A stretch of DNA of 64,000 nt from Sphagnum magellanicum (lineage: Eukaryota > Streptophyta > Sphagnopsida > Sphagnales > Sphagnaceae): positions 310,001-374,000 of the forward strand of contig CM038916.1 in NCBI GenBank assembly GCA_021904315.1. The letters run 5' to 3'. Each line of letters opens with the position of its first letter. The stretch's first letter is position 1. The translations under genes were made by a program, and so were the position numbers. Below are positions 20,201 to 53,375 of this stretch, piece after piece. Below the pieces are notes generated by a model. The model ran no database searches and was not told where the DNA came from. It saw nothing but the letters and a program-made list of their open reading frames with translations.

Positions 20201-22672
20201 TGTTGTTGGCTGGGTTGACATGGATGGTGAAGACTTGAAGATTCTTAGCAGCCCAATAGAAAGGGACAACTCTATCAATGAAGATCTGGACAGGGTTGGT
20301 TTTCTGGGCATGATTCTTGACAAGACAAGGTTTAGTTCTGACCAACTAGGGGTTCTTGATTGCAGGACTTGACATAACAGACTTAAGAAAACTGGAATTG
20401 GTTCTGACCCTCTTTGGGTTCTTGACCACAAGGTTCTTGGCAGGACTGGACAAAATGTTTTTCTGAGCGTGGGGTTCTTGAGAGGTGCACTGTTGTGCGC
20501 TGAAGGTGAGGGTTCTAAACCGCCAATCAATGATAGGGTTGTGTGCTTCTAGCCAAGGCAGACCAAGGATGATGGGATGGTGAGGGGTGGAAATGATGTT
20601 GAGAACAATCTTCTCCGTGTGCTTGCCGATACAGAGTTCTAGAGGGGTTGTCTCGTGTGTGATTGCACCAGAAGCAATGGTTTTCCCATCAATAACCTCT
20701 ACCAGAACAGGGGTTGACTTCTTAATCACAGGGATGTTGTGTTGAACGACAAATGTTTGGTCGATGAAAGAAGAGGTGGCGCCGGAGTCCACCAAAGCTG
20801 ACACTTGTGGTATGTCTTCTGGAATACGAATGATGTCCACATACTGAGTGAAACTAGGACTGGGACCAACAACTGAACAGGAGCCTTTGCAAAGGTGGTG
20901 TTGGGTGAGATCCAATCGCACGGCTCCTACTGTGACTAGATGTTCTTGTTTTCCAACTCTGGGGGAATTTCCACAGCTTGTACTTGAAGTTTGACAAACT
21001 TTTGAGGGCATTGACGAGCTATATGCCCTGGGTTGCCACAGTAAAGACATAGATTGTTTGTCCTTTGGCGAAGTTTCTCGGCTTCTGTCAAAGATTTAAA
21101 TTTAATTGTGTCAATCTGCATCGGAGCAGGTCGAAAAGAGGCAGGTCGGGCAACTGGTGTTGTTTGAGGAACTGAGGGGAGCGTAGTAGGCCGACTGTTC
21201 CAAAGCTGGGCATTGGAGGTGACTTTCTTTTCCTAGTGACGTTTAAACAAACGATTATCGCACTGAATTGCCTGGGTGATAGCTTCGCTGAAGGAAGAAG
21301 GGTCTGCGAGTGTCAACAAAAGATCTTGAACATCATCACGAAGCCCACAGCGAAACTGATCAATCAAGGCAGCTTCTCCCCAATTGATGTCGCAGGCAAG
21401 CTGCCTGAATTCTAAGGCGTAGACGATGGCCGAACGTGTCCCTTGCTAGAGGCGACGCAACTTGTTGGCTGAAGTCCTCGCCTTGTCACTGTCCCCAAAC
21501 ACTGCTTCAAATTCCGCCATAAAGGCGTTGAAATCTTGTAGGAGAGGAGATGATGTTTCCAGGATGGGAACAAACCATGCTGCAACTGTCCCAGTGAGTA
21601 GGGTTCCAATGAATCCTACACGAGTGGTGTCATCAAAATAATGACGGGGGTGTAGTTGCATGATCAGGCGTACCTGGCTACAAAGCCTCGAAATTTGAGG
21701 CGTGTTCCATCAAACTTTTCTGGCAAATTGATCTTGGGCTCTGGGGCGACCATTGCAAGAGCAGGAAGTACTTAGGCAGGAGGTGGTGGCTGATTCTGTA
21801 GGCAGGTCACCGAGTCGGCATTTTCTTATTGAAGGTGTTGAAGGGCGGCGAAGATTTGAGTGAGATCGATGTTTGATTCTGAGTTGTCCATGGTGGTAGT
21901 TCTGACACTTTTGCGCTTCCCAATCTTCAAACTCCTTCCTTCAAGATCTCCCAAGTTGTATTTGCTCCACTTCAAAACTTTGGCTTTGATGTCTTTCAAA
22001 ACAAACTTCTGTCATAGCAATTTTGCAAAGCTACACTGCTCACATATGACCTTGGATCGTTCTAAAATTTTGGTAAAACATGAGCAACTATGTCTACTAC
22101 CTTCTCACAAAATCTCAGCTCATTTAACTTCGGAAAGTGAAAGATCTTGCTACTTCCTTGAAGCCACCTCAAACTGGGACCTGAACACAAAATGACTTAC
22201 AACTCGCTCTCAAAAACTCCAAAATCCTTGAGATTTTGGGAGACACATAAAATATATGTCTTCTATATCTATTCAAAATTTCAGCCCTATTGATGATGAC
22301 CACAAAGAGATATCACTTTCAAAAGAAACTGATTTCAAAACTGAGATTGAAACTTCAGATGCTTGGATCTCTCACAATACAAGTCCAAATGACATGAAAT
22401 TTCTCTCACACATATATTCCTATATGATCTATAAGATCACAAAGTTACAAACCCAAAAAAGCTTAAACAAAGGAGATATGACCAAAACACCAGATCTAAC
22501 ACAAAGTTTTTAAAAGCTCTTAACTCTCACAAAACATATCCTTTTCTTTGAAACTTTGAGAGTAGAAGCGTCCTATAGTCTTCTATAACCTTTCCAAGTT
22601 TCACCCCAAGATACCTCTAGCTACTTATTGAAACAACAAAAAAAACAAACAAGAAGAAGGAGCAAATCAAAC

Positions 22673-27756: not shown

Positions 27757-28926
27757 GTAAACCCTAAACCCTCAAAACCCATCATTTAGGCAAGTACCTA
27801 GTACTTACCTTACCTACCTCCCATTCCCTAACCCTGGGTTCAAGGTACCCAGTCTAGTCATAGGGTGCCTAGGGTCGGTGTCGTCGCTTGCCCTTTGCGT
27901 CGTCGTCGTCGTCGTCGCTTGGCGGTGAGTGCGTGTGCGTCTGTTGCGCGATTTTGCGTCTTGTTTTTGCGCTTCTTGGGTTCTGAATTGCTGCACTTTT
28001 TTGGCTCAACTTTCTTATTCTCTGGCTTCTTTATTTTCTTTTGGGTTATTTTTCCCCTTTCTTTTTCTTGGGGGGGGTGTACTTGAAGAATGCTCGTTGC
28101 AGAGGTTTTGGGTTGTTTTTTTGTGTCTCCCTGTGTTGTTTTCTGGATTGTGATTGAGGTTGCTGTGTGAGGACGGAGGGGTGGACACGGCAGGGTAGGG
28201 TAAGTGGTAGCATTTTTTTTTGGAGCTTATTGAGTGCTTCTCGCGGCGTCAATTCTTGCAGTGAATGTGTGGATGATGCGGCAAGCGGAACTGTGCACCT
28301 GAATTAGGGTTTGGAGTTACGCTCGTCAACAGCAAGCATCAACAACTCGATGTCAGATATATAGTTCTTTCTTGCTGCCTTGTAAGTGCTTGCAAAATGG
28401 GTTTCTAAAAACGGATTTCAAAGTAGAGATTTCAGTATACTTAATACAGTGGGAATGTGTGGATGTGGCAAGTGGAACTGTGCACCTGCATTAGGGTTTT
28501 TAGTAACGCTCATCACAGCAGGCATCAACAATTGGATGTCAGACATATAGTTCTTTCTTGCTGTCATGTAAGAAGTCCTTACAATGCGGATTTCTATAAA
28601 TGGATTTCAAAGTAGAGATGTCAATAATACATAGACAGCGGGAATAGTTCTTTCAATGTGTGGATGATGCGGCAAGCAGAACTGTGCATCTGAATTAGGT
28701 TTTGGAGTAATGCTAATCACAGCAGGCATCAGTAACTGGATGTCAGACATATATTTCTTTCTCACTGTCATGTACGAAGTGCTTCTAAACGGATTTCAAA
28801 GTAGAGAGATGTCAGTAATGAGTAAGTATACAGGGGGTATAGTTTGGAGGTGTATTACAGTCCTTGGCACCCTGCTGTGCATGCATGTTTTCAGTTTGTG
28901 AAATTGTGGAATTTTGGATTTTCCAG
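27757..28926 (+). promoter_or_regulatory. probable promoter and 5' leader of the MOM1-like gene
   Basis: Two overlapping telo-box motifs (AAACCCTAAACCC, 27759-27772) precede a locally GC-richer stretch with (GTC)n at about 27898-27917 and a T-rich segment to 28225. Telo-boxes are known plant promoter elements bound by TRB/AC-type proteins. The start codon at 28927 directly follows TTTTCCAG, so the leader is probably spliced. Transcription start is inferred, not seen. Confidence 0.5.
28263..28825 (+). repeat. three tandem ~190-bp units in the leader of the MOM1-like gene
   Basis: Units begin near 28263, 28453 and 28655 with GAATGTGTGGATG. Each includes GGAACTGTGCACCTG-like, GGATGTCAGACATATA-like and GGATTTCAAAGTAGAGAT strings. 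They occupy the inferred 5' untranslated region or first intron. Confidence 0.85.
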
Positions 28927-31900
28927 ATGGTATGCAGCCCATTGCAGTTGTGGATGGATAGGGGAAATGCATTGGAGGGGACTCAACAGACGAAGAGTAG
29001 CAACTATGTGGTTGGCGAGGTCATCCAGGGCTGGAAGGGAGAAGAGGATGAGTATGTGGATATTGACTCATCTGATGATGACAACAACAGTGGAGACAAC
29101 AAAAAAGGCACCACCAATCAGTCCTCTAGAGACCTGATAGGTACAGCCCTACCTTCTTCTACTATCCATTTCTCAAAGGGGGCCAGAATTCAGGAATGCT
29201 GGGAACCTTAGGGTAATTTCTTTTGAGGGCTTTACACATGCATTGAATTGCAATATGGTTGATAAGGGTGCTCTATATCATCATTTGGATGCATGCAAAC
29301 TGGTTGTGAAGAATCCACACAAACCGGTTGCGAATCTCCATCTCTTGCAGACTCATGCTGGAAATAACCCTAATTGCCATTGCAAGGCAGGAGCCATTCT
29401 AGACATATGCAATCTTTGAGAGACTCCCAATCTATGACTTTTGCATGAAGTCAGCCCTGTAAATATATGAAGACAGTGATTGGTTCCCCTCATCCATTAG
29501 GGTTTGACATAAGTCTCATCCTAGTACATTGGTAGTGAATACTGTCACGCCTTTCATTGGGGAAGTCTTCAGGGCCAGAAAAATTTGTGGGATTTTTCAT
29601 CTTTCTGCTTGTCTGCAGATGGGGAATATATAGCTTAGGATCTTCCTCCATCTGGGCTGTTGTTAGGCAGCAGCATTTAACTGCTTTTTGGCACCTTACC
29701 GTACAAGTCATGGCCAGGGTTTGTTGGTTTCCCGATCAATTTCAGTATTATTACTCTTCTAATTCTGATGCCTTGCGTCCAAGTGTAGGTGAGGAGTGGC
29801 ATCAAGAGGATGGTGTGGCAGAGTCCCAAGCTTCTATTGGACCCTCCCACTGGCCTTCCGAGCATGGGAGATTGTTTCAGGGACCTATTAGTGTCATGCA
29901 TGTCAATGAGCGGGTAATACCATGTGAATCACATAAAAATGTTGGTCTTTCCCATGATGGCAGCAGCAAGTTGGAGTCAGGTGACAAAAGGGAATCAAAA
30001 GCAGAAAGAAACTTGCAGGTCTTTTGACTTGTTTTCCACACTTCACATGTTTTGTTTATTCCAGCTTCTTCTGATTATTCTTTGTGGATTAGACACTTAG
30101 GCAATGAATGTTTGGCATTTAGGGTTTTAGGCTTTATGTGTGTTTTTAAGACTGGATGTGAGTTGTTATTTTTGTTTCGTTCAAAACTCAAAGAACCCAA
30201 CAGGATTCTGAATTGCTAAACCTGAGAATTTGCTCCCAGATTAGCACAAAACGGAAGATGCCGGATTCAGACCACCCTTCAACTTCAAATGTAGTCAAGC
30301 ACCTGAGAACAGGCACATCTGGTATCAGGGGAGCCAATGATAGGGCAAGGAGCCAAAATTGTGATCAGACGGAGAGGGAAGCTTCCATGGTGCTGGGGAA
30401 GAGAAAGTTGCCATCGGGAAGCTTTAGTAGTGAGCAGGGGTCTCCTCCTACAAGAAAGTTGCCAGGTGGCAACAAACTCAAGGGGTTTGCTGTTGGTGAG
30501 AAGGAGCAGGAAGCTATGAACCATAAATACCAAGTTGAAGTCTCTCCGTCACTTGAAACCACAATGACAGAATCCAGCAATATCCGTTCAAGGCTTGTTT
30601 GGGTGAAGGTACAATTTGTCTTAGTTTGCTTATCTCAAGGAACAGAAAACCTTTATAGAATGAGTCTTTATGTACATGCATATTGCTGGTTTGTATACAT
30701 TCTTCTTTTCTCTCCACCATCATCTCTTTGTCAAGTGCCTAGCCTTTTTGCCAGGCAAGTTTTCTTGTTACTTCCAGAAATACAGTGCCAAGCCTGGTAT
30801 GCAGATCTTTGTGCAGCAACAGTGTTCCCAGTACTTTGAACTTGCAGTCCCTCCTGCTCTTGGTGTTTTGCGAATTCTTGCTTGGATGATCTTTGACTCT
30901 GTCCTCCAGAATGTAGTCTGTGTACATTGTTGCATGTCGATCACATTCACATATATGCCTGTACTTCTCCACAGTGTGCAGTAAATGGTGAACTTTGGTG
31001 GCCTGCAATGAGAATTACGGAGAAGGAAGTGCCAAGCGAAATTGTCAACCAGCTCTCACCAGTTGAGGGCAAGATTGTATCTCTGTTCTGTGTTTCCAAG
31101 GACCTGCAGTTCCAGGTCATTGCCAAGCGGAGGTGCACATTTTTGACTTTTTGTCTCTCATCTAATCTGCAGCTTGGAACATTATACCCCTTAGGTCTCA
31201 GCCTTCATAACAACCAGGCTTCAAATATCCTTTGATAGTTGCATTAGAGAGAATGGTCTTATTGCAGTTGGTAGAAGACAACTTCCAGGAGAGAATGGTC
31301 TTGTTGCAGAATGAAGAGAAACTTTACCAGTGCTTCTCTTTCTCTCAAAGCAGGTGCATCCGGCCTTTTGGGCATTTCTACAACACTTGGAAGAGTCAGA
31401 CAACCAGTCTGGGTTTTGTAGCTGCTGTCAATGAGGCTCACAGGCTGTTCTCATCATCAAGCGATCACTGTCTGAGTGCCTCTGCTAATGAGATTGCAGA
31501 TGGAAGGGATAACATGCTGGGGGAGATGCCTGAGATGATCTCTGGGAGGTCTGAAGACATATCTGATCAAGGAAGAGAAAAACAAGAAGTTGTAAAATAT
31601 TGTCTGGTCAATGGGGAAGATAGGTCTTTGGGAAATGCTGATGTGCATATTGAGAATGAAGATGAGCGCTCATCTGGGCAAAATTCATTGCCACTCCCTC
31701 AGGAGCTATCAGTTGCTGCTAATAAGGCCCAGGTTGGGGAAAGGGAGGAGGGAGAGATGTGTTCAGGGGAACAGATGCATAAGATGATCTCTGGGAGGTC
31801 TGAAGACATATCTGACCAAGAAAGAGAAAAACAAGAAGTTGAAAAGTATTGTCTGGCTTACGAGGAAAATCGGTCTTGTGGAAATGCCAATGGGCATATT

Positions 31901-34900
31901 GAGGATGAAGAAGAGTGCATATCCAGACAAAATGCATTGCCACTCCCACAAGAGATATCAGTTGCTGCTGATAAGGCCCAGGTTGAGGAAAGGGAGGAGG
32001 GAGAGGTGGGTTCGCAAGACATGAATGAGGTTGAAAGTGCACAGGCTTCAGGAGAAAGAGATGTTCAGGTTAAGAGCAATGGGTGCACGCAGACCCAGCG
32101 ATTTGCTCTTGCCAACAGGAACATTATGAGTGGTGATGAGATTGAGTACACCAGAAATCCTGATGGACACATTGAGAGTTTAGAAGAGTATTCAGGTGTA
32201 CAGAATCCATCATCACTTCCTCAGGAGATTTCAGTTGCTGGTAATGGGGGCCAGCTCAAGGAAAAGGCAGAGGAGGTAAAGGGTTCACAAGACATGGATG
32301 AAGTTGGAATTGCATGTGCATTAGGAGGCAGGGATGTTGAGAACAAGAGCAATGTAGATACCCAAGATATGGAGTTTGCTGAGGCCAACACTAGGATTGA
32401 CAATGAGATTGAACATGCATTGAAGTTGAATAGTAGGAAGGCCAACTTAAGCAATGACATATTGGGCATTGCAAGTAAGCAAACTATGAGAAGGTCAGAG
32501 GATGGCCTTAATAACAAAAATGACATTGGTTGTCCACCAGTGGGTGTTTTGCCTCAAATTGTTCAACACATGAATCCCACCCAACTGGTCAGCAATTCTG
32601 AACCAAATGTGGCTAGTCTTCCACTTGCTCCAGATCTGGATTCTGAAGGTAGCAAGGATCCTAATGTCGAGTTGGAGGAAGGGGAGCTAGTACCACAATG
32701 GCAAGATAGCTTCTTGGATGATCAAAGCACAGGATCAGAACTTAAGCATCCCATAGAGAAACCCTCACCTGGTGCCTCACAACTGGAGCCTTTGGTTAGT
32801 GCAGATTTTCCTGTTTGCAAGCAGTTACAGAATAGGAAGCACCAAGGACAATCAGTGGTTTCCTGGAAGGATGGTTGTAGTAGTCACGAAGTGGCCAAAA
32901 CCAGAGCAGAAATGAGGTAAAGACTTCTCCTTTGGCTACTCATACTTCCATTGCACACCATTGGCCTTTGGTAGTGATTGTTCCCTTGCAGTCCATGAAT
33001 GCTACAGTACAGAGATCTTTTCTCTGAGGTCCAGCTGAAGTCCTCCCTTATGAACTTGAATGTCATTGCTACACTCTGAGTATATGTTTCAATGATGATT
33101 GGAATGCTTGTGCTGGATCTTTGGTGGCAGGACATGTGACAGTGATTCTGGGGGTGTGCAGCGAAAAGGAAACATAGTTGAGAAGATCTGGGCAGTGCGG
33201 GAGGTTGTTGCAGGAGCCTCTAGCAACAGGTTAGCCTATTGCAGTGGAATAGGTGAGCCCCTGGGAGAACAAAGTGGCCTCCTGAGCATTGATGAGGATA
33301 GAACCAAGGGTGATAGTAATGTTACCAAACCTGTGGAAGAGGTGACCACTTGTACTCAACTCCAGAGAGTAACACAACTACATGTCATGAACAGACCCAA
33401 GGCAGGAACTAGGCTGGAACAGCTAAGAGAGCCAAATAGGCCTCAGCAGATTGTGCGATGCTACTTGGACTCTCATTGTGAAGCTCTAAGTGGAGGCAGG
33501 GCAAAGGAATACTTTGTGAAGTGGAACTCACTCTCTCATGCTCACAATACATGGGTGTCTGAGGCAGAGCTGACAAGGTTCTCACCAAAAGAGCTGTCTC
33601 ATTTCCAAAATCTGTTGGCACAAGAGGAGGCAAGATTCTTATTGTTTTCTCTTAGTTTTGCTTTCTCTCTCTGTTATCACAATACCTCTTATGGCTGTGA
33701 GTTTTGTTCATTAGAAGTTAGAAGTTGTTATGATCAATGACAGCTTACACATTCTTCAGAAACAAAGTGTGGAACACCTCCTTTTCATGTCTTCTTAAAG
33801 GGCATGACCAAAGGCAATCTAAAACTCTTACAGCTCAGTTTTTAAACCTGACTTGTATGCAGGTCATAAACTGGAATCCTGAATGGGCTCGGCCAGAATG
33901 TGTCTTGCTGAAAAGGAAATGTCGGTCTCTGGAACATAATCATGGAGGGGCAGAAAGTACTTGCAGGGACAAGGAGATGAAAGACACATTTGAATGGTAT
34001 GTAAAGTGGATAGGTTTGGGGTATGAGGATTGCACTTGGGAATGCGAACACAGTGGTGTTCTTGCAGCCCCTGGTGCAATCAAGCTCTTCTCTGCATATG
34101 AGAAGCGGACAGAGGCAGCAAGGCAGAGAACCACACCTGAAAGAGTTCAAGAGGTGCATAAAAATTTGACAGTGTGCAGCTTTTTCATATTTGTTTCTTC
34201 ACTTATGATTGGAAGTTAACTCTCTGGAACCATTGACTGGAAGTCTACTATAAGTGAATCCAGGAAATGCCATATCACTTGTCTTTGGGTTTAATTTGGT
34301 GAGCAAGTTGAGATATGGTTCCAATTTCACTTTTTTTATGGAGACAGGCTGAGAAGCTTCGTAAAAGGCCACTTGTCAATATAAAGAGCCAGCCAGATTG
34401 GATTCCTGGGAGGCTGTGGCACCAAAATCATCTGCAAGCTCTTAATCAATTACGAGAGTGGTGGCATGGCCACAAGAATGCCATCATGATTGACCAGTCC
34501 AATCAGGTGATTAACTTTAAAGCCTGAAACTCCAAAATGCCCAGCAACCTGCCAAGAGTTTTCCAACTTGATGGTTCCACTTTGCCAATCCCAAAAGGTC
34601 CACTGCACAGTTCTTCTTTTGTTCTTTAAAGATTGTGTTGTAAGAGTTCTCCCTCATGTTCCCCTGTCTTTTCTTCCTCTGTTCTTGTAACTTTTCCTGT
34701 TGTCAGGTACATTTTTTGACCATATTCAGCTTCAATGTCTCAGGTTGCCATGCTGAAGAGCAACTAGCCCTGCATATGGTAATGTGGGTTCCAAGTGTTC
34801 CCTGACATCAACCCTCATAGGACAGTACCAACATACCAGGTCTCTAACTATTCTCTGTTCAATGCAGGAGAATATTGTAGCAACAATCCTATTTTTGGTG

Positions 34901-37900
34901 TCCCTGCTAGAAGAGTTCCAGGTGGTGTTGCCTAATTTGATTGTGGTTGATGCGGGGCTGATTGCAAGCTGGGAATCAGAGCTTAAGCTCTGGACTACAC
35001 AAGTGGATTTCATTAATTATACCTCAGAAAGCACAGATGCAAGAGAGTTCATTCAACAAGCTGAATTCAACTTTCCAAATGGACCCATCAAACCACAGAT
35101 GATTTTGACCACCTTTGAAGTGTTAAATTCTGTAAGAAGGAAACCCAAATTTTTTACCACCAGGGACTTGTCTTATTACATATTGTTTGCACTTTGTTAC
35201 CAACCTGCAAAGAGACTTAGCAGGACTCAGATAATTTTTAAGCCCTAAGTGATCTGATTTTAGTGAGGAGGTTGTATTTCACAGATTTGGCAGTATGGAT
35301 ATCTTACAGACATATATATACTTGATGATGCAGGACATGGAGATCTTGAAGATGTTGCATTGGGAGGTTTTAGTAGTCAGTGAACTCAAGTCTTATTATC
35401 GACCCTTCAGCCAGATCAAGGCTGAGTTCCGCCTCTTGCTTTTGAGTGAACCTTTGAAGGTAGGCCATGGCTCTCAATCTACCATAAAACACACATCCCA
35501 AGAGGGACCTTGGTTGATGCTGTGGTCAGTGTATTTACAACCAGATCAGGACTTCTGTTTGCTGGTAGGAATACACCATTGGGGGACTGTGGGATTGCTG
35601 ATAATTGGCATCTACTGCTACCTTCTGTTGTCTCTTTTTCTCCTGATGATGATGATGATGATGTTGATGATGTGCTTTCATTTTGGCTGTTTCTAACTGG
35701 CTGGTTAACTGTTGGGAGCTGTCAACTGAATGCATATTCTTTTCACCTCAATTTCTCTTTTTTATTTCTTGCAGACCAATGTTGAAGAGCTGTCGCAATA
35801 TGTTTCGTTTCTGGAGCCATGGAAAAACCTGGTAATGCATGGCCAGGATGAGGGGACCCAAGTAGCTGAACTCCAAAGAAGATTGAGTGGACGGGTATGC
35901 TGACCCACCTATAAACACTGGTGACAAAATCCCTGTAACTTTTGCACAGAATGGACTCAAAGGCCTTCATGGAAATTGTGACTCTTAAAAGGAGATAGAG
36001 CAGAACTTTGATCTCTCTTGTCATGGCTTGGAGGGTATAGGTACCAAGTAAAGAAATCTACAAGTTGATGAGGATAATCCTTGCAGTTCCAAAGACATCA
36101 CTTGGTTGAAAGGACCCCAGATAACAAGAAGGGTCATAGGAAAACAATCTGAAATTGTCTTAACTTGTCAAGTGTCTATTATTTTGTTCGTAGGTGGCCA
36201 TGCGCGGGACAGGACTTCCAGAATTGAAAAAGGTGACAGATGCTGAATTGCTCAAGACCCCCCTTGTTTCTGACAAACAAAGGAATGAAGGAAAAGAGAC
36301 TGGGGCCCCTGAAGTAAATGGTGCTGGAGAGTCCCACCAAGGGATGGATCCCAAGACTTTGGATTCCATGCCTATGACCACTACACCTGCTGATCCAGGA
36401 GTCTCTGACAATACAGGATCTACAGAGGCAGAGGCTGGTGGACAGGAAATGAAGAAAATGACAGAGAAAAGGGAAAAGGCTATCAATGATAGAACTGAGA
36501 GTTTTCATGAAACCTCCCCTCGTATATCCTTCCCTCCAGATGCACTCAAGGTGACTACAAAAGAACCAGAGAAAACTCCCAACAGAAGTGACGGGCTTTC
36601 TACGGAGATGGCAATTAATCATACACAAAAGCGAAAGGAGGTGATAGGACGAGAAGGCCAGAGTAACTACATGCTTGAAATGAAGAACTTACTTACCAGG
36701 CTTTGCAACATTCTGCAGCTTCCGGTATTTCAGATGAAGATTACTTTCACTGCAGAACTGAGTGCATGTGAATGTCTTTGATTGAGTTCTTTACTGATTT
36801 TCCTTTGTGGCTTCTTGTCTCACCCAAAGGACACTCCTTTCAGCTTCTTCTATGAATGACCTCTTCTATTGACTTTGCAGGAAAATGTTACAAAATGGGC
36901 ACATAAATTATTGGTGCATATCTCTCAATCTTCCCGGCTCCTTAAGAAGGAGAAGTCACTCTATGAGATTGTTGCCCTTCATCTGTGTCTGGTATACACC
37001 TCCATTCATCATCTCTTTTTGGTGACTTTCTTTTTGCAATCCATTCATGATTTGCAGATGCTCATGGGAAAACTGTGTAGTTCTTTGTAGAGTTTCCTTA
37101 CTTTGTAACTGCAGTGTTGGGTGGCAGGCAATGACCTCCATTACCCACTGGATATATCTGGAACGATTGCTAGTGCAGAAGCAGAGTGGAAATTTGTGTA
37201 TTCAAATGTACAACTGCAGCAACTGATTTTCCAGAAGGTGAAAAAACTGTGTGCTACATACAGGAGGCCTTTGCCATCTGAGCTTGTTCCGTTGGCGCCC
37301 AACAATCAGTGTGTTTCAATGTGTAAGGCTGAGCCTCTGATCCTTCCATTGAATCCCACAGCTGCTGTGCAAGAGATTCTGCCAGCTCCATCAACCCTGG
37401 TCACGTTTGCACCCAATTCCGTCAGTGGAGAGAAAAACAGGCAAATGCCTTCTCCAAAACCAGAAGCCAATCATTCTTCAGACATGACATTGAGGCAACT
37501 GCATTCTTACAGTGCAGGGTGCGCAGAATCTCTTCAAGCCCATAGAGATACAAATCATGTAACCATTGTGCAAGAGCTTGAGAAGGGTTGTGCCCAACAG
37601 CCTTCACCTTCTCTGAAGCCTGGATCTGAAACCACATTAATGGTGCGAGAATCTCAACCAGACTGTGGGTCACAGTTGGTTGAGGAATCTCAACAAGAGT
37701 CTCTCGGAGTTTTGAACATACAGCCATCAAGCTTACAACCTGATATTTCAAGTCTTTTGCCAACTTCAGCAAGCATGGGACCATTATCTCAAGCACAGCA
37801 AGTGGCTACAATGGCAGGAGATCAGCTTGCTTTTGGAACATCAAATCAGCCACCTTCCCTGTCTTGCTCTGCTGTGCTTGCACCCCAAGCAACAATTTGT

Positions 37901-40900
37901 GAAACTCTGCAAATTGAGGTATAGGGCCTTACAGTTCTTGCACAGGATGAGAATTTTCAGTTGGTGGGTTCTGCAGTTGAGATTAAAAAGCTGGTTTCTC
38001 AGGCTTCCTTGTATTCCTGTTTTTCTGCAGTTTCCTGAGGCAATAACTTCTGAAATTCAGCAACTTGAGGAGGCACAGGTCATTACAGTTGCTGCACAGG
38101 AGGATGATGCCCAGCTGGTACAGTCTGCAGCCGATGAGACTGAAAAGCTGAACTCTCAGCCTTCTGTTCAGTTGCCCCAAGCAAGGTCTGAAACTCAGCA
38201 CCTGGAAGTAGAGGGTCTTACAGGTGCTGCACAGCAGGAGGATGCTCAGTTGATGTGTTCTATTACTTATGAGAGCGAAGAACTGAACCCTCAGCCTTTA
38301 CTTCCTTCCTCTTTTACACAGTTGCCTCAGACAGCACCTTCTGAAACTCAGCAGCTGGAAGTAGATGGTCTTATGGGTGCTGCACGGGAGGAGAATTCTC
38401 AGGTCATCTGTCCCATAGTCACTGGGACTGCAAAGCTGGACTCTCAGCCTTTATTGCCTTCCTCTTTTATTCAGTTGCCATGGGCAACGACTTCTGAAAC
38501 TCAGCAACTGGAACTGGAGGATCTTACAGCTACTGCACAAGAGGAGGATGCCCAGATTATGTGTTATAGAGTGTGTGAGACTGAAACACTGGACTCTCAG
38601 CCAACCACGCAGCTCCTGGCAACCATGTCAGGCAAAGTTGATGTCTCTAAGGAATTGGATGTGCAGATTACACGTATCAGCAAAGAAGGAATACCTTCAG
38701 CAAATGATACTGTCACTCGTGCAGATGCTTTGCAATCACAACCTCCATTGGTTTCAACCCAACCTTCTGTATCTTGCTTACCTCAGTCCCAGGTGACTTT
38801 TCTCTCATTAGATGTGTATTAGACTCCCAATATGTCACTTGAAAGATCTCAAGCATCTGTTGTTGCATCTAGACAGGACTTCTATAGTTGTTAGATTCCA
38901 AAGAGTTTGCCAGTTGGGAGAGCCTGTGTACATCAAGCTATACAGTAAAAAGTTCTAAGCTGTAAAACATCTGGATTCAATGACTGGTATTGCCTGCAAA
39001 TGGTGTGCAGCTTGATGCACTTCAGCATGAATTCATTCGCATACTAGGGAAACAATTGCGAGATGATCGGAGATTGATACTGAAGGGTCAAGAGAAAGAG
39101 GGGGAGATGCTCAGTTGTTGGCTTGATCATGAGATGGCACTACTGCAGAGAGTGTTTGACAGAGCCTGTCTTGACATCCGGGCTATGTATTCCACTCCTG
39201 GTCCACTCATCAAGGCACAACACAAACAGTTTGAGGGGCAAATGAGTGCATTGCAACTGCGAGGGGCTAATGACAGGAAAACAGTGGAAGACAGACACAG
39301 TAGTGACCTTCAGAAACTCCTGAAGTTGTACAAGGCACAGGCAAGGCATGTTCGCGAGGTTCGGGATCCAAATAATTTTCCTGGCAGCAGTGCTGGGCTT
39401 GTGGACGAAGTGAATACACTCCGGGATTATTATATTAGAATTTTGGCTAGTGGGCAAAAGGGGGATGAGTCTACTAATCATTTGGCAGCTTGGTCAACAT
39501 TGTTATGTGACCAGCAGCCAGCAACCTCTGTGCTTCGAGCTACTGAGTACCAGCCACCTGTGTGTGTCCCTCCATCAACAGGGATTTCCCCAAATGCTCC
39601 TCCTCCCAGTCTGCAGCACCTTGCTCAGTATCCAAGAACCCATCAAGCTCAAGTTTCACCATGGGTGCATAACAATCAGAATGCTCAACCATTTACAAAC
39701 ATGGGCCCTTCTGGATCTTTCTTGCATGTTGCAAGGCCCACGAGTTCTCCATCACTGGGTTTTCCAAGCCCTCTGGTGTGTGTGCCAAATTTCCATCTTC
39801 CCCACTGCTTTTTGGATATACCATGACACTTTCATGTTGTGGAGAGCCTTTCCAAGTCTCTGATCACTTTTTCAGGCAGACAAATTTATGTTTCTGAGAT
39901 TGCTTTCCTTTTTATCACCACTGTCTTTGAAGTTGTAGCAGTTGATTCTAAGATTCATCCTTTCATGATTAGGAGATTGAATCAACTCAAGGCACTAAAG
40001 AGTACACAGCCATGAGTTCTGGGGTTTATGGGACATATGTTAATGTGGGTCCCTTTGATGGCAAAGTTGAAGTGTTGGGGAAGGGTCTATGGATTCGAAA
40101 TGCTGTATGTAGTTGGTAAATGTTCACATGTACTGCTGTGATTTGACAAATTCAATGGGTTCTGTATTTGGGGTCATGTTTGTAGGTGGCTCCAGATGCA
40201 CGCCCATCACACATCTTGATTGACTCATTGTTGAGAGCAAGAGAAAAGCTATGCAAAGAGTTGGAGCAACTCAAATGCTTATACGATGAACAGGTAAATA
40301 CTATGTCTCTTGAGTGCTAGCCAAAATCATGACTGAGTCTCTTATCATTGCTTCCAGAAATGCAACAAAAACTTGGGACACAGATTTTGTATATTGGGTT
40401 GCCAAAATTTTGGGCTGATTCTTATATTCTTATCTACACCCAATTAGGAGCTGATGAAGTCAGTGGGTAGTCATGGCAACTCATCACTGCTGTTAATGAT
40501 TAAGGTAATGGTCTGAGACTTTGTGAGTGACTCTCATAAGGTTAAGACTGCACTAATTTTGGTGCTACCTTGCAAATTGTTGTTGTGGAACTTTCTCTGC
40601 AATTTGATAGATATGTTTGGTTGATTCCAGTCGCAGAAAATCAAAGGAGAGTATGACACGGAGGCAGATCTCCTTCACAAGAAATATGAGGCACTCTTGA
40701 CAGAGGAACATCGCACATTCTCTTTGAAGCAACAAGTCATCCAACAAAACATTGCCAAAGTGGAGCGTAACCGTCAGCTAGCAGAAGCTCTCAAGCTGCG
40801 AGAACTTCTTGTACAACCCGGTAATTCCTCAGAACAGGGGGTTCACTGTTTGAGACCAGTCAAGATTTCAATATGGTTTTTTGATCATTGGTTTTATCCT

Positions 40901-41963
40901 GGATCTATCCTTATTACATGCAGGACAGCATCAGTGGTTTTTGTGTGCTGTAACAACTTGGAGCATGAAGAGGGTTTTGAAAGATGTCAACGATTTCACA
41001 TTTTCTTTCACTAACTGGGACAAATTGTGTAGTTACATCAGCTGTGTTTTCTTACACTTTTGTCTCTACCACCCATTTGAACATGGATCCAATTGTTGGT
41101 TTTCTCAAATGAGATTGATGTGGTGGTGATAGAAGATGCTTATCAAGAGCAGCAATTTTTGGACTATCTACCTGACTCTAGACCAGCATGATCATTGCAC
41201 TTGTGAGAGGGGCCATTTACTTACATTTTTACTGTGGGGTGTTCAATCAGTAGATTTGGAAGGAGCACCCACATGGCCGGTTTCACCAATGTATAGACCC
41301 ACTACTGGTTCACAAGTCTCACCTACTACTGCACCTGTGCAACAACTGCCTCACCAGCAACTGTCTTCTGCAAGTATCAGACAAGGTGACTTTCATTTTG
41401 CATTTCTCTGTTTGCAAAGAACAGAAGTCCAGTTTGTGCTGCTGCTATGATCAAGTGTTAAGTATCATTTCTATATACTGAGGGGACTGCATACCACAGC
41501 ACTCCTAGAGTTGCTGCTAGCAATAAGTTCTGTTCTGAGAAGCATGTCTCATCTGATGAATAGAATTCTTTTTTTTGGGCTCATTGTCACAGGTCTTGTT
41601 GCCCCCATGCCTACACTGAGGGCAATGCATCGAAAGCAGGCATCCAGAACCATATCAAGAGGACCAGATCAACTGAGAAGGCTTGAAGATAGTGCTGTGA
41701 TGATGGCAGGGGTAGTTGTGCCATCAGCAAGCCCAAGAGGACCAACAGACCAACCAAGGGTGATGAGTATGCAAACAGAAACCAACCCAGAATCTGTGCA
41801 ACCAGCCAAAGCACAGAGACCTGCTCAGAGGCCTGCTGCAGTTATGGAACTACCTGATCTTGACAGAAGAGATAGTAGCATCACAGCAGCCCAAAGGGCT
41901 ACTGGCCCTTCATTTTGGTCAGATGCAGTTTTAATTGAGTTATCAGATTCCGGGGAAGAATAA
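28927..41963 (+). CDS. MOM1: MOM1-like silencing factor: PWWP, two chromodomains, half SNF2, coiled coil (22 exons, ~2651 aa)
   Basis: In Arabidopsis MOM1 is a nuclear, CHD3-derived factor that silences transposons without major loss of DNA methylation. Here the joined exons give a protein of about 2651 residues. Order: acidic N terminus; PWWP (about 265-355); acidic repeat region (360-840); chromodomain 1 (about 949-1000); chromodomain 2 (about 1012-1085); N-terminal SNF2 lobe (1109-1331); spacer; MOM1-type helical block (about 1490-1610); Gln-rich repeats (1814-2020); coiled coils (2068-2160 and 2367-2485); and C-terminal acidic tail. HKNAIMIDQ stands where a SNF2 Walker A would be, so ATPase activity is unlikely. 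MOM1-like anchors include ICLCWTA-type HLCLCWVAG and an EYDTEADLLHKKYEALL-type coiled coil. No PHD finger or helicase C lobe was seen. The start ATG follows an acceptor site; an alternative ATG lies at 28954. Transcript support is needed for exons 1, 2 and 21. Confidence 0.88.
30588..31460 (+). other. PWWP domain of the MOM1-like protein (end of exon 3, exon 4, start of exon 5)
   Basis: SRLVWVK at the end of exon 3 joins CAVNGELWWPAMRI in exon 4, giving the PWWP signature as WWPA, then GKIVSLFCVSKDLQFQVI as the beta-barrel core. Exon 5 adds IRPFGHFYNTWK and GFVAAVNEAHRL, matching the helical end of PWWP domains. PWWP domains bind methylated histone tails and DNA, so chromatin targeting is the likely role. 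Confidence 0.8.
31534..32300 (+). repeat. ~83-codon internal repeats in exon 5 of the MOM1-like gene
   Basis: MISGRSEDISDQ begins copies at 31534 and 31783 (249 bp apart, in frame), both followed by REKQEV.KYCL and LPLPQE.SVAA. A third, weaker copy covers about 32110-32300 (SLPQEISVAGN, GSQDMDEV). The region is acidic and probably disordered. Confidence 0.85.
33440..34090 (+). other. tandem chromodomains of the MOM1-like protein
   Basis: Chromodomain 1 in exon 6 has EYFVKWNSLSHAHNTWV; chromodomain 2 in exon 7 has EWYVKWIGLGYEDCTWE. The paired arrangement just before an SNF2 module is the CHD3/PICKLE layout and supports descent from a CHD3 remodeler. Aromatic cage-type positions (Y/W in YFVKW, W in TWV/TWE) are kept. 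Confidence 0.85.
34348..36991 (+). other. degenerate SNF2 N-terminal lobe and following MOM1-type helical block
   Basis: Exons 8-11 give LREWWHGHKNAIMIDQ, ATILFLVSLLEEF, LPNLIVVDAGLIASWESEL, WEVLVVSELKSYY and EFRLLLLSEPLK. These align in order with the MOM1 SNF2 remnant, in which the ATP-binding loop and DEAH box are lost; here the DEAH position reads VSEL. Exons 12-14 then give LTRLCNILQLPENV and IVALHLCLCWVAG, like the MOM1 block that follows the helicase remnant. No helicase C motifs were found between them. Confidence 0.75.
37919..38030 (+). other. intron derived from a coding repeat unit
   Basis: This 112-bp GT-AG intron lies beside tandem coding repeats. Read in the flanking frame it gives a stop and then GLTVLAQDENFQLVGS and EIKKLVSQ, plainly homologous to the downstream units GLTGAAQQEDAQLMCS and LDSQP/LNPQP. 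Its acceptor region (TTTTTCTGCAG then TTTCCTGAG) aligns with CTTTTACACAG then TTGCCTCAG inside the next exonic unit. Confidence 0.75.
38031..38600 (+). repeat. ~50-codon tandem coding repeats in exon 15 of the MOM1-like gene
   Basis: Four units share SETQQLE...L...AAQEEDAQ, and two share PLLPSSF.QLP. Units start near 38031, 38180, 38330 and 38480. The encoded segment is Gln, Glu and Leu rich. Confidence 0.85.
40186..40820 (+). other. coiled coil resembling the MOM1 CMM2 segment
   Basis: Exons 18-20 encode LLRAREKLCKELEQLKCLY and KIKGEYDTEADLLHKKYEAL, ending in NRQLAEALKLRELL. In Arabidopsis the CMM2 coiled coil dimerises MOM1 and binds the PIAL SUMO-ligase-like proteins. An earlier helix-rich stretch in exon 16 (39011-39300) resembles its N-terminal part. 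The assignment is by pattern, without alignment. Confidence 0.65.
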
Positions 41964-46056: not shown

Positions 46057-49000
46057 TTACAAATTCCATAATGGCTCAGAGATGGATGTAAGACCAACTC
46101 CACCACTTGTTGTTCCTGGCTTATGTAGAGTTTGCTTCTCATGCAACTTCTGCATTTTCTGCCTTTGACACTGCTGTTTCATCACCTTCTTTTCCCCCTG
46201 ACCTTGTGGGTCCTTAAAGGTTTGCCGTTCTGTGTACTCACCACCAAAGCTTCTGGAACCTGACTCCTTTATCCTAGGGAAGGAGTTGCTCAATTGCCCT
46301 GCTTTTTCACTCTTGCTCCTAGCTCTGCTTCTATTCAATCGTTTCTCCTTTAGTAGGATGACTCGTGGGTGGAAGTCGTTGGACTGCTCTACCATCTCCT
46401 CCTCACTCCTAAGTCTGCTACAGCTTGCTCTCGGGGTCCCTTGGCTCTTGGTATACTCAGCCTCTTGCATCCTGGCAAAGGGATATGCAATTTCTTGTTG
46501 AGTAATGATCAAGGACTGTTGATGCTTCTGTCTAGGGCGAAGATCATGGTCATTATGTGAAGAAAACATCATTTGTCCAGTGCTTGAGTTCTCTACTGCC
46601 ATACCCTTGAGCTTCATGTCTTTCAAGACACTTGTTGTGGAGAGGTGTGCAGAGTAGTTGCCAACTACTAACCTTGCAATTGATGAGTCATTGGTGTTGA
46701 GGGTCGGTGGTCTTCCCAGGAGGCTGATTTGAAGCTCAACAGGACAGTTGAGCACCATTTGAAGAGCATGGCAAATTTGACTTCTGGATCTCTCAGCCTT
46801 CAGTTTGTGATGTAGCTGCTGAAACTCCAATTGTGTGATTGCATGAGTGTCATCTGCAAAAACAAAACCGCAAACCCACACCAAAATCTCCTCTTGTATA
46901 TAAAGATCCACCTTTCTGAAAATACTTTTTTTTCCTTTGAGTAAAAAGCATGGCATTGTCTTCAATGATGGAAATCACTGAAGAGGAATAGGAATTCCTG
47001 AAGAGAATGAGACTCAGACCAATCAGTAAAGAGAAGAATATTGGAAGAAAAGAATCATACCATTGGCAATGCTGATAGCAAGTAAGTTGCCATGATTCAG
47101 CAGAAACTGTTGCATTGAATCTGAATGGATCAATTGAAGGACTTGATTCCAAATGCCCTTCAATTTCTGACGGTGAAGCCTTTGGAATCCACTGGAATAT
47201 ACAGGCTTGGATGAATCAGACATGCACAATAATACATCATTGGTGGCTGGCATATCATCTGCTCCCACCCAATGCTTCTGCTGTTGCAGCCACCAATCTG
47301 ATGATCGAGGCTTGCTCCAGTAGACATTATCCAATGGCAACTCAGCAGGGTGCACCTTGGCATCTGCTTGAATGCCCAATGGATGACTTCTGCTCGTCCT
47401 CTTCCTCCTCTTTCTCTCCATGCACATGGCAAGAGTTGGCACTGATGTGGATATAGTTGATTGTTGAGAGATGTTAAACTTCTGACTAGCTGAGAGTTGT
47501 TCATCCTTGGTTTGGAGTCCCCTTGATTGCAATGATTCTTGAGCTGTCTCCTCTTTGCCAAATCCAGCCTTGAATGAAGAAAGACGGCTTATCTGCTGGG
47601 TACTAGTGTTTGCAGAGGAGGGTAGGAAGCAGTGATCGGGTGCAAATTGCAATAGTGCAGCTGTTAACCATGTGGGTCGATCACCTGAGACTCGTAGCTG
47701 CTTTTCTGCCTCTGACAACACCTTCAGTGCTTGACGAAGCCGTTGTAGTTCTTCCTTTCTTGCTGCAATTTTACACAACCTAATCAGATGTGGTTTGTGG
47801 ATGTTGAAACCCATTGGCAGCTGCTAACCCTGAAATTCTGGATGCTGGATTTCTCTGCTGACATCTTGTAAAATTGTAGCAAATCAACTTCTCCATATTT
47901 CTGGGGACACTCAATTCTCTCATAATTTCTATCTGTTGTTTTTTTTGTCTTCACAAGCACCTCTTTGTCAAGTGTAATCCTCAAAATGCCAAAAAAGACC
48001 ACAAGGACTTCATAAAAGTATTGCACTTACGAAAATCTCTTTTGAAAAAACCATCTTCACGGATTTCACACTGGTGCATGTTGAAGCTTCCAGCAAGAAG
48101 GTTGGTTATGAGTGATGCCAATTGTGACACCAAGGACAAAGGATCCACGCCTAAATCCAAAACCTGCCGCATCTGTCTTACAGTGTGCACTGTATCGGCA
48201 GAGAGTGCCACATCCAGTAAATCTAATAGCTTGTTCTCTGGAATCAATCCTACCTGCAAATTGAATGGTGAAAAATAAATACACCATTGTCATCACTACT
48301 TTAGAAAACCCGTGCTAAATGAAAATACTTTAAAAGCACTAATCACCTCTTTTAGCTACTAATTGAGGAAATACTTGAACAGATACCACATTCTCTACTA
48401 CTGGTATACATATATCATTAAACAATTTTGTACGCATAAAATTTGGATTAATTTGCCTCTGCTCTGCCAGACTTACAAGCTCTTGAACCATATCTGAGGA
48501 GATTGTTTTGTCCAAGAGACTGAGTTGATCCAGCAGCATCTCTGCATCACGAAGAGACCCATCTGCTCTTGATGCAATTGCTGCAAATGCATCGTTGTCA
48601 ACATTCAAGCTTTCCTTGAGCGCAAGTGATTGAAGACGTTTGATTATATCAGACTCCTTCAATTTGTTGAATGAGAATCTCTGACACCTGCAGGGCTGGT
48701 TTAATTGTCATTCCACAAAGAAAGGCAAGGGGATTAGGGTTTTGTTACCCAGAAATTTTTTATTTATTTTATTATATGTAAATTTCTTTTGTAATTGCCC
48801 CAAATTAGGGAATTAACCCTAAACCCTAGACCCTAAACTCATGACAAAAGAAGGAACTTGTATCACAGTCAATAGGTAGCTGCAGGGTGTCCCTGCCACT
48901 CGCACAATCCCCACAGTGATTAGCCACCCGTTAAGAAGTACAAAATTTCTATTTTCTCCGGACAACACTTTAGCAGGTCAAAAAAAGAGTAAGAAAAAAA

Positions 49001-52000
49001 TTTGGGTCTATAGTTGGTTGTAAATGGAGCAACCTGGTTTAGGGTTTTGGGACCCAGTGTGAACTTGATGGTTGCAGATTTCTACAATGTAGCCACAGAT
49101 GTGAAGAAGAAAAACAATTAGATGCAAGGAAGAAAAACAACCAAATGTGAGGAAGCAGAAAAACAACCAAATGTGAGGAAGAAGAAAAACGACCAGATGT
49201 GTGGACGAACCAGATGCAAGGAAGAAAAACAAGAAGATGTGAGGAAGAAGACAAACAGCCAGATGTGAAGAAGAAAAACACTGGATCTGAGGAAGAAAAT
49301 AACAAGATCTGAGGAAGAAAAAAACCAGCCAGATGTGAGGAACATAAACAAACCAGATGTGAGGAATAAAACACTGGATGTGACGGGAAAAACGGCATGT
49401 GAGGAAGGAAGAAAAACAGAGGATGTGCAGAAGAAAAAGAACAATCAGATGCAAGGAAGAAAAGCCTATCAGAGGATGGGAGAAGAAAGGGAAAGAAAAA
49501 GCATGAAAAGGGATGCGTTGGTGTGTGATACCTGGAAGTGACAGTCAAAGGAAGTTGATCGGATTCAGTAGTAATGAGAATGAAAACAAGATAGGCAGGA
49601 GGTTCTTCCAAGAGTGTGAGAAATGCATTCCAAATCTGACTACTCAAGAGATGGCAGCCTTCAACAATCAACACTTTGTAGCGGTGGCGGTGGTGGCAGC
49701 AGCAACAGGAATTTGGAGAAGAAGAAAAACTAGAAGGTGATGACAAGTTTCTTTGCCTCATCAGCATGGATTGCTGCAGCATATGTTGCAGATCCATGTT
49801 ACTTGCAACAGCAGCATCTATTTCCTTCACATCATCAGCATCATCATCAGAAGAACAAGAGTCTTCTTCTTTATCATCATCATCATCTTTCTGACAAGCT
49901 CTGGCTGCACATTCTTGAAAAGAATTTCTTCTACAGTTTCCACATTCTTGTGATTCCACCTCTGAGGTGGCAACAACACTACAACTGATGGCAGCAGCAA
50001 AGATTCTTGCTGCTGTGGTCTTTCCAGTTCCTCTTGGCCCTGTGAAGAGATAAGCAGGTGCAATCTTGTGTTTGCGAATTGCCATAGTCAAGGATTTCAC
50101 CACCATGGTGTGACCCATGAGCTCATTGAAGCTTTTGGGTCTGTATTTCTGGCTTAAAGTTCTGCACTGCGCAAGAAGTTTCTGCTCATCTTCAGAAGCT
50201 TGAGCCATTCTTGTGTGCATCATCATCATCATCTTTGGCTCCTTCAATTGCTGCAACGATGATTCACCACATCGAGCTTTCTGTTGTTTGTTTTTCATGC
50301 CATGTTTGTCTGAATGTAACAAGCTCTGGTTTGCATGTAACTGCTCTCGAGCAGCAGCATGAGACAACACAATGCCATGATTGGGTTCCGAAGGTTTCAA
50401 AGCAAACCTCATGGAACTGTTGCTGCTGCTGCTGCCATGGCCAGAGTCATCATCATCATCTTCTTTTCTCATCAAGAAGGGGAAGGGAGGACTGACTTCT
50501 GGTGAATCAGAAGAAGAGATCATTGTTGTTGAGTCTGTTGCTGCTGTTGCTACATTTTGTTGATTGTTGTATTGATCTTGCGGCGATGCGGCTGCAGAAA
50601 CCAATTCTGATCCGTTCCTTGAGCTTTGCTGCTGCATTGACACTAGTGTCATCATCACCTTTCTCTTTGTTCTTCTTGCAGGTTCCTTCAGCAGTCCTGC
50701 AGGTGGATCCGTCACTGGATCAGGACCTCCTGGCTTCTTCTTCCACGCTCGCTCTCCTTCATGGAAGTTAGACTTCTTTGACACAAGCTGCTGCTGCTGC
50801 TGCCGATGATGGTGATCGTGATTCCATGGCAGTCTTCTTCCATAACCCTGTAGCAAAGGCTCCAGTTCCTTGTACACAACAAGCTTGCGTGGAAGCTCAG
50901 GTCGTTGTTGTTGTTGATGTTGTTGGTCTTCGTCGCCCCTGTTTTGTTGTGAACTTTTCTGACAAGCTCTCACTTCTTGTCGTTCTTCTGCTTCTTCTTC
51001 TCGCGAATCAATGCGAGTCTCCTTGATCTGCATTGCTGCTTCTGGTTTCCTAAGATTACTGGTGTGACGAACCGCCTTGAACCTTCTCGTTGTTGTTTTC
51101 GAACTTGATCGCTGTGTGCGGAGGAGGATTGGAACGTGACCGGAGTGGGTGTTACCTTCACGGTGTCGTGAAGACGATGGCGCACGACGCAGGCTTCTGG
51201 TCGACATTGTCTCTCTCCTCTCTGCTGGACTGAGCTCGTCGTCGTCGTCGTCCTGCTGCTGCTGCTCCTCCTCCTCCTGCTGCTCCTCTTCGGTTTGAAA
51301 TCTGCTCTCACCGAGATCATTGCCCTGCAAGCCTTGATTCCTCCGGTAATTCGACAACAGACAAGCACGATTTCTGGAATTCTCGCAAACAAACTCTTTC
51401 GTGAGCTTCGAGTCTCTTGTTGCAGCAGCAGCAGCATCCGCTTGACATTCTTCTTCTTCTTCGTCTTCTTCACGTACAGAGGTAGACTTAGCTTTCTCTG
51501 TATCCATCCATTTCCTCCCACTTGCTCGATTGTGGCTGCTGCTTCTTCTTCTTGCGTCTCTGTTCTTCCCCTGAACCGGTGCCATTGAATCTCTTCTTCT
51601 TCTTCCTAATCCATCGCCCCACGATTCCTTCTGCGCCGATGAATCTCTTCTATTCCTTGATCCATTACTCCACGGTTCCTTCTGCGCCGATGAATCTCTT
51701 CTATTTCTTGATCCATTGCTCCACGATTCCTTCTTCACTGCCTTGCTCGAACAGTTCTCATCCCGAGCTCCACCGACGTCTCTTGAATCGTCACCGTCAT
51801 CGAGCCCGAGTCCCCGAGACAAAAAGGAGGAGGAGGAGACCAAGGGATTAGTGGTGATGGCGACGGGGTCCTGAAAGGACTTAGCTTTCTGGAGAGCTCT
51901 AAGCTCTCTCGTGAACTGGAGATGATACACTAATCGCGGCCTCTGCACCTGGTTACGGATCCGGATCGAATTACTCAAGCGCCAAGACTCGGAATGAGAG

Positions 52001-52044
52001 GAAGTCGTATGATCCGTCTTGACGACTCCGAGACCACGCGACAT
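46057..52044 (-). CDS. STI: STICHEL-like protein, DNA polymerase III gamma/tau-type AAA+ module (5 exons, ~1481 aa)
   Basis: Exons 52044-49532, 48687-48477, 48253-48031, 47762-47061 and 46853-46057 join in phase into about 1481 codons. Arabidopsis STICHEL regulates trichome branching; the family carries a clamp-loader-like AAA+ module whose biochemical role is unclear. Seen here: an N-terminal FTRELRALQKAKSFQDP block like STICHEL relatives; Walker A GPRGTGKT (about residue 668); a Cys-rich zinc-like segment (CGNCRRNSFQECAARAC); SRC arginine-finger motif at the exon 1/2 join; and DGSLRDAEMLLDQLSLL, ALKVLSEAEKQLRVSGDRP and VELQISLLG downstream. The Walker B site reads VLIVEGCHLL instead of a DE pair, so ATP hydrolysis is doubtful. 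The start at 52044 (MSRGLG) matches the family; upstream ATGs at 52107 and 52140 share the frame. Low-complexity Gln, Ser and Asp runs are frequent. It converges with the MOM1-like gene. Confidence 0.88.
48688..49531 (-). other. first intron of the STICHEL-like gene with a minisatellite
   Basis: From 49095 to about 49460 the plus strand repeats a 20-30 bp motif (CAGATGTGAGGAAGAA then AAAC) some fifteen times. The minus-strand frame of exon 1 stays open through it to 49039, about 164 codons of a Ser-, Phe- and Leu-rich peptide. Splicing at 49531 (GT) is supported because it restores family homology. The part from 48700 to 49000 contains TAAACCCTA-type motifs. Confidence 0.8.
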
Positions 52045-52443
52045 AGTCTGATGAGGAGCTTTAATTCGAAGCCTCCTCCGCCTCATCCTCCTCCTGCTGC
52101 TGCTCATATGTAATAATGCAAAGCAAAAAACAATAAACACTCTTCAAACCTTTTTGCACAGCCTCCTCTTCCTCCTCCTTCTGCTCCTCCACCTGCTGCT
52201 GATAATAAGAATAATCCTGATACAAAGCAACAAAAAAAAAAAGCTCTCCACCTTCAGGACAAGCGTTTCTTCACCTTCTTCGACGCGACAAACAAACAAA
52301 GAAACAGACAGACATGGTTTCTTCACCGTCTTCGTCGCGACAAGGACGTTGCAAAACCAACACAACGCGAGAATAGTAGTGCGCTGCGCTTTCTCTCTCT
52401 CTCTCTCTCTCTCGCTCTCTCTGTGCGCCAGCGTTCTTTTCGC
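52045..52443 (-). promoter_or_regulatory. probable 5' leader and promoter region of the STICHEL-like gene
   Basis: A pyrimidine-rich region with a (TC)n microsatellite at 52391-52413, a common feature of plant leaders and core promoters. The transcription start was not determined. Confidence 0.4.
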
Positions 52444-53375
52444 TGGCTATTCATAGCCAGAAAGCTACTTGAAAAAATTAAAAGTGCTAAAATCACCTGG
52501 TATTTGAGATTTTCAATAGCCACAATTCGATCAAATTTTAAGAAAACTCGCCAGATCTCTATGCATGGTTCAATGCTGGCTATATATCGCCAAAAAGCTA
52601 CATGAAAAAATTAAAAGTGCTAAAATCATGTGGTATTTGAGATTTTTACTAGCCATAATTCGATCCAAATTTTAAGAAAACTCACCAGATCTCTATGCAT
52701 GTTTCAATGCTGGTTATATATCGCCCAGAAAACTATATGAAAAAATTAAAAGTGCTAAAATCAAGTGATGTTTGAGATTTTCAATAGCCATAATTCGATC
52801 AAAATTTCAGAAAACTTGCCAGATCTCCATACATGGTTCAATGCTGGCTATATATCGCCAAAAAGCTATATGAAAAAAAATAAAATTAAAAGTGCTAAAA
52901 TCAAGTGGTATTTGAGATTTTCTATAGCCATAATTCGATCAAAATTGAAGAAAAATCACCAGATTTCTTTACATGGTTCAATGCTGGCTATGTATTGCCA
53001 AAAAGCTATATGAAAAAATTCAAAGTGCTAAAATCAAGTGATGTTTGAGATTTTCAATAGCCATAATTCCATCAAAATTTCAGAAAACTTGCCAGAATTC
53101 TATATATACTGCCAAAAAGCTATATGAAAAATTAAAAGTGCTAAAATCAAGTGTTATTTGAGATTTTTCATTAGCCATAATTCGATCAAAATTTAAGAAA
53201 ATCGCCAAAATTCTATACATGGTTCAAAAGATGGCTATATATTGCCAAAAAGCTATATGAAAAATTAAAAGTGCTAAAATCAAGTGGTATTTGAGGTTTT
53301 CAATAGCCATAATTCGATCCAAATTTAAGAAAAATTGCTAGATTTCTATACTTGGCTCAAGTGCCTAGCCAAACA
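52444..53375. repeat. seven-copy ~134-bp tandem array upstream of the STICHEL-like gene
   Basis: The landmark ATTAAAAGTGCTAAAATCA (one copy with TTCAAAG) starts near 52477, 52609, 52745, 52884, 53018, 53129 and 53262. Each copy includes TTTGAGATTTTCAATAGCC, ATAATTCGATC and GGCTATATATCGCCAAAAAG. Spacing is 111-139 bp. Small open frames across it are by-products. Confidence 0.9.

Follow-up and report, generated by a model that had tools for sequence, protein, structure and literature searches.

In this study, we propose that a 64,000-nucleotide stretch of Sphagnum magellanicum DNA (GenBank assembly GCA_021904315.1, contig CM038916.1, positions 310,001 to 374,000 of the forward strand; hereafter the window, whose own numbering is used throughout) probably encodes a MOM1-family protein acting as a chromatin-bound, non-enzymatic scaffold of transcriptional silencing, without ATPase activity. 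One spliced frame on the plus strand joins a PWWP domain, paired chromodomains, half of an SNF2 module and MOM1-type parts. This combination had been reported in the original prediction, made from the DNA letters, and is confirmed here; the interpretation attached to it, a histone- and DNA-reading front end linking CHD3 ancestry to MOM1 silencing, is as a whole partly supported. Putative membership of the MOM1 family is supported by the MOM1 domain PF25029 and a CMM3-like end.

According to the proposed mechanism, the N-terminal PWWP domain and the paired chromodomains would hold the protein on nucleosomes or DNA. The first SNF2 lobe has lost its ATPase motifs and may persist as a structural remnant unable to hydrolyse ATP. 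By homology with Arabidopsis, PF25029/CMM1, the CMM2-like helix and the C-terminal SUMO-interaction motif would hold partners of the PIAL and RNA-directed DNA methylation types.

MOM1-type C-terminal blocks

The MOM1 domain PF25029, corresponding to CMM1, is matched with 54.4 bits (E 1.4e-14, cut-off 27), and a CMM1 profile built from 31 Brassicaceae sequences reaches 23.7 bits, compared to 4.3 bits for the best of 500 shuffles. At the opposite end of this region, the predicted CMM3-like SUMO-interaction motif LIELSDSGEE closes the protein and resembles the VVCLSDDE end of MOM1; the residues LSD lie within the last 14 residues in 30 of the 32 MOM1 proteins compared. Patterns of this kind are found in 157 of 20000 random 12-mers and five times in the whole protein. 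The C-terminal end of MOM1 binds SUMO in yeast two-hybrid assays and is dispensable for silencing, as reported in 2018 (PMC6084981; here and below, papers are cited for the accessible part of their text).

CMM2 is likely present, judging from a helix that emerges when exons 18 and 20 are joined and the short exon 19 is skipped. The Brassicaceae profile then scores 13.9 bits (3.5 bits with exon 19 included, 6.9 bits for the reversed sequence). This exceeds every score among 5000 shuffles (4992 reported, best 12.4) and 1863 windows cut from CHD proteins (best 7.0), and 86 other windows of the same protein also stay below it. Over the whole protein, the profile totals 9.3 bits, while its best single domain reaches 6.0, which at least 4 of 2000 shuffles surpass. 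In local alignments to the Arabidopsis chain, the score obtained with exon 19 is reached by 41 of 2000 shuffles, and the score obtained without it by 5 of 5000, the reversed sequence scoring 53 versus 60. A comparison of the region with solved structures returned no MOM1 match. The structure of CMM2 has been reported (PMC3276543); CMM2 interacts with PIALs and miniMOM1 targets silencing, within a MOM1-PIAL-MORC6 route that also has PHD1 and AIPP3 as partners (PMC10338684). Another paper mentions MOM1 in passing (PMC11371177). Of the MOM1-type helical and coiled-coil blocks predicted originally, CMM1 and the CMM3-like end thus stand, the CMM2-like helix is likely provided that exon 19 is skipped, and a profile of the long Brassicaceae coil downstream of CMM1 gave no match here (0.2 bits, best shuffle 5.4).

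PWWP domain, chromodomains and SNF2 remnant

A predicted PWWP domain is encoded in the frame, where the PF00855 profile matches over positions 3-90 of 93 with an E of 2.1e-5 and 25.4 bits, just below the Pfam cut-off of 25.6; within a longer piece of 709 residues the match scores 21.3 bits (E 3.9e-4). This near-complete match and the core VNGELWWPA are shared with the PWWP proteins LEDGF and DNMT3B. Identity with LEDGF amounts to 22%, and the Sphagnum domain differs by a two-residue insertion before the core and by a glutamate at Tyr18. Of the three positions which we take to form the aromatic cage for methyl-lysine in LEDGF, Tyr18 is aligned with E, Trp21 with W and Phe44 with F, the last pair being found in the LEDGF alignment and in one of four gap-cost settings, while the other settings leave Phe44 or the whole pair unaligned. 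A short match to DNMT3B likewise places E at its aromatic position. Because one of the three cage positions is a glutamate and the pairing of another varies with the alignment, it is uncertain whether the domain would read methylated histones. A literature search for MOM1 and PWWP as whole words, with most subscription journals outside its reach, found no paper. A PWWP domain in a MOM1-type protein is not found in the literature searched, unlike the chromodomains and the dead SNF2 module.

Both predicted chromodomains are recovered as two stretches of PF00385 (E 2.6e-16) and are followed by SNF2 lobe 1 only: PF00176 is matched over profile positions 5-180 of 290 (E 5.3e-11). Aligned to CHD1 and CHD4, the lobe lacks motifs I, II and III, with the P-loop MGLGKT replaced by SNQENI, VDEAHRLKN by VSELKS and TGTP by LSEP. 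Seven full-length CHD and MOM1 proteins used as queries gave no helicase lobe 2 match at E <= 1 anywhere in the window, and only about 840 nucleotides (nt), 299 of them intronic, separate the end of the SNF2 match from CMM1. The predicted half module without a credible ATP-binding loop is accordingly borne out.

The accompanying statement that Arabidopsis MOM1 keeps more of the helicase is not, since it keeps the other lobe instead, i.e., the second lobe only (PMC2507757, PMC6084981). In a protein-to-protein control with three CHD queries, lobe 2 but no lobe 1 is matched in each of the three Brassicaceae MOM1 proteins compared (E 3e-12 to 7e-26); Pfam Helicase_C is found in two of four proteins scanned, one match lying just above the cut-off and the other below it. 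The Sphagnum protein and Brassicaceae MOM1 have therefore kept opposite halves, which may be leftovers of a helicase that decayed differently across MOM1 lineages.

Relation to known MOM1 and CHD proteins

Our MOM1 comparison set consists of 32 proteins out of 90 candidates retrieved with an Arabidopsis CMM2 query, 31 of which carry Brassicaceae names; MOM1 from outside this family was not seen among the named matches of that search, and the C-terminal region as a protein query retrieved none of 3562 candidates. The Sphagnum protein shares with this set PF25029/CMM1 (31 of 32 by precomputed domains), the putative CMM2-like helix, the C-terminal LSD and a partial, dead SNF2 module. It differs by its PWWP, Chromo and SNF2-rel_dom domains, which are precomputed for none of the 32, and by lobe 2, detected in the three compared above and not found here. 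With the CHD1 and CHD3-4 remodellers it has in common two chromodomains placed ahead of SNF2 lobe 1, whereas their ATPase motifs are lost, their lobe 2 was not found and a MOM1 domain is present instead. A chromo-SNF2 query, in a search limited to proteins up to about 2140 residues, gave CHD-type proteins as the best 32 of 7994 scored candidates, the named ones from fungi, Histomonas and Schistosoma.

Descent of MOM1 from CHD3 was published in 2008, when a PHD finger and chromodomains were described for several homologues along with the replacement of key SNF2 residues (PMC2507757). According to the same source, MOM1 occurs in vascular plants and not in Physcomitrella, and in Arabidopsis its SNF2 part is dispensable, deletions of the N-terminal and SNF2 regions leaving silencing intact. 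Compared by the description given there, poplar PtMOM1 and Selaginella SmMOM1 resemble the Sphagnum protein in having chromodomains, an SNF2 domain with altered residues and then the CMM motifs. PtMOM1 has in addition a PHD finger, its SNF2 domain is complete, and SmMOM1 carries the structural features of PtMOM1, whereas here no lobe 2 match was obtained and no PHD-like pattern occurs in the six unspliced frames between 26 and 43 kb, a scan that an intron-cut PHD finger would escape. Pfam likewise gives no PHD match in exons 1-5 (exon 2 scanned as part of an extended open frame). The accessible account of the MOM1 homologues in PMC2507757 does not mention a PWWP domain. A layout with lobe 1 only is also absent from the accessible text of the cited MOM1 papers, although no literature search was aimed at the layout itself.

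The link to CHD3 ancestry proposed in the original prediction has consequently been in print for MOM1 since 2008. Since the chromo-SNF2 part of the Sphagnum protein reaches 100 bits against CHD1 and 79 bits against CHD4, which counts against the CHD3 side of our reading, CHD3 descent rests on PMC2507757 rather than on this analysis. In a 13-row tree of the chromo-SNF2 parts, the query sits on an end branch of length 10 at an unsupported position, which is evidence neither way.

The protein offers a natural experiment on MOM1 recruitment. Combining possible readers and lobe 1 only within one chain, it is the mirror image of Arabidopsis MOM1 and would indicate that neither lobe is indispensable in itself. 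We regard as unlikely, yet as worth stating, a scenario in which the earliest MOM1 carried its own chromatin anchor (PWWP and paired chromodomains) in one chain with the silencing part, and flowering plants later lost this anchor. Recruitment would then have passed to separate complex proteins such as PHD1 and AIPP3, which we take to be histone readers, and the dead helicase would have been trimmed from opposite ends in different lineages.

Gene model, alternative readings and neighbouring features

Exons were picked by GT/GC-AG splice sites, phase and open frame. A rebuild recovered the number of exons (22) and both end points of the original prediction, the comparison between the two being limited to these features: the frame runs from 28927 to 41963 on the plus strand and holds 2663 codons from ATG to stop, of which exons 3-22 alone (20 exons, 30204-41963) contribute 2515 open codons. 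In a leave-one-out codon score, all 20 of these exons are positive with the predicted frame scoring best, while among 19 introns in three frames each, which were also part of the background table, the single positive value is 0.02, in one frame of one intron. When exons 7-22 alone serve as the training set, exons 1-5 score 0.24-0.30. Confidence in the model is lowest for exons 1-2; exon 1 has no Pfam match, and the weak acceptor of exon 2 was preferred over the one at 29619, which looks stronger but runs into a stop within a few residues. The exon 2 acceptor, exon 19 and CMM2 are the weak points of the model.

Table 1. Predicted features of the MOM1-type gene (window positions).
Feature	Positions	Strand	Remarks
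Exon 1	28927..29140	+	ATG directly after AG; acidic stretch; codon score 0.26 in frame
Exon 2	29789..30018	+	Phase 1 fits exon 1; weak polypyrimidine tract; codon score 0.25
Exon 3	30204..30608	+	Ends within first PWWP strand (RLVWVK)
PWWP domain	30594..31441	+	Spliced over exons 3-5; PF00855
Exon 5	31354..32916	+	PWWP end, then acidic linker with two 83-codon tandem repeats; codon score 0.30
Exon 6	33131..33629	+	GC donor
Chromodomain 1 (best stretch)	33495..33611	+	Exon 6; PF00385
Chromodomain 2	33983..34153 (limits approximate)	+	Exon 7 (33863-34153)
SNF2 lobe 1 only	34438..35819	+	Exons 8-11; PF00176
MOM1-like domain (CMM1)	36656..37267	+	Exons 12-14; PF25029
Exon 15	38031..38792	+	Linker with 51-codon tandem repeats, period 153 nt, 38187-38602
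CMM2-like helix, putative	40240..40789	+	Exons 18 and 20, exon 19 skipped
Exon 19	40448..40504	+	57 nt, 19 residues; doubtful or alternative; interrupts CMM2-like helix
CMM3-type SUMO-interaction motif, predicted	41931..41960	+	LIELSDSGEE; C-terminal end

Several further points weigh against a single MOM1-type scaffold with a PWWP front end. The PWWP match falls short of the Pfam cut-off by 0.2 bit, and by 4.3 bits in the longer piece. CMM2 fails when exon 19 is retained, and its skipping was decided after the alignment had been seen, exons 18 and 20 then matching the length of the Arabidopsis chain. The missing coil behind CMM1 counts in the same direction, as does the prediction of the gene model from DNA alone. 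At the junction of exons 5 and 6, such a model leaves room for two adjacent genes, a PWWP protein made of exons 1-5 and a chromo-SNF2-MOM1 protein starting at the first methionine of exon 6 (33387); one frame of the intervening intron is neutral in codon score (-0.00), and the silence on PWWP in the account of MOM1 homologues cited above fits such a split. However, this intron measures 214 nt with phase 2 matching on both sides, and coding-like composition extends up to its donor (0.23 for the last 240 nt of exon 5) and lies upstream of the would-be start (0.25 for the first 257 nt of exon 6), so we hold two genes to be quite improbable.

Somewhat unlikely, in our view, is a decayed or repurposed PWWP domain without histone or DNA binding, in a protein whose function would lie, as in Arabidopsis, in its MOM1-type C-terminal part alone. 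The glutamate at the presumed cage position Tyr18 and the survival of Arabidopsis silencing after N-terminal and SNF2 deletions (PMC2507757) speak for it, whereas Trp21 is retained, Phe44 is matched under the alignments given above and the match covers nearly the whole profile. Decay of the entire gene to a MOM1 pseudogene would account for the many degenerate motifs, yet 2663 codons are free of stops, an argument that is not model-independent, since an open frame guided the choice of splice sites, and the tandem repeat periods of exons 5 and 15 (249 and 153 nt) are both multiples of three; a pseudogene is very improbable. An active CHD remodeller is barely conceivable: CHD1 and CHD4 are the best solved relatives of the chromo-SNF2 part, but P-loop, DEAH and lobe 2 were not found, and PF25029 is present, a domain that by precomputed annotation occurs in 31 of 32 MOM1 matches and in none of the 32 CHD-type matches (best 32 of 7994). 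A chromatin-bound MOM1-type scaffold without ATPase activity is thus the reading that we prefer.

Within the gene, an acidic EEGE motif recurs in exon 5 at 31740-32010 and 32660-32700 (GEREEGEM, EEREEGEV, LEEGEL), and the two chromodomains are separated at 33630-33862 by a likely GC-AG intron. Three diverged copies of a unit, spaced by about 187 and 204 nt, lie just upstream of exon 1 at 28264-28784, in the presumed 5' leader. Elsewhere in the window, a STICHEL-like gene in pieces (46060-52143, minus strand) combines a DNA polymerase III delta-type region with a STICHEL DnaA_N-like domain and is flanked by a tandem array of ~133-nt units (52442-53360). Retrotransposon remains at 17419-21095 (minus strand), presumably of the Ty3/gypsy type, include protease, reverse transcriptase, RNase H and an SH3-like domain, and a fragment at 297-851 (plus strand) with Pol_BBD and GAG-pre-integrase is presumably of the Copia type.

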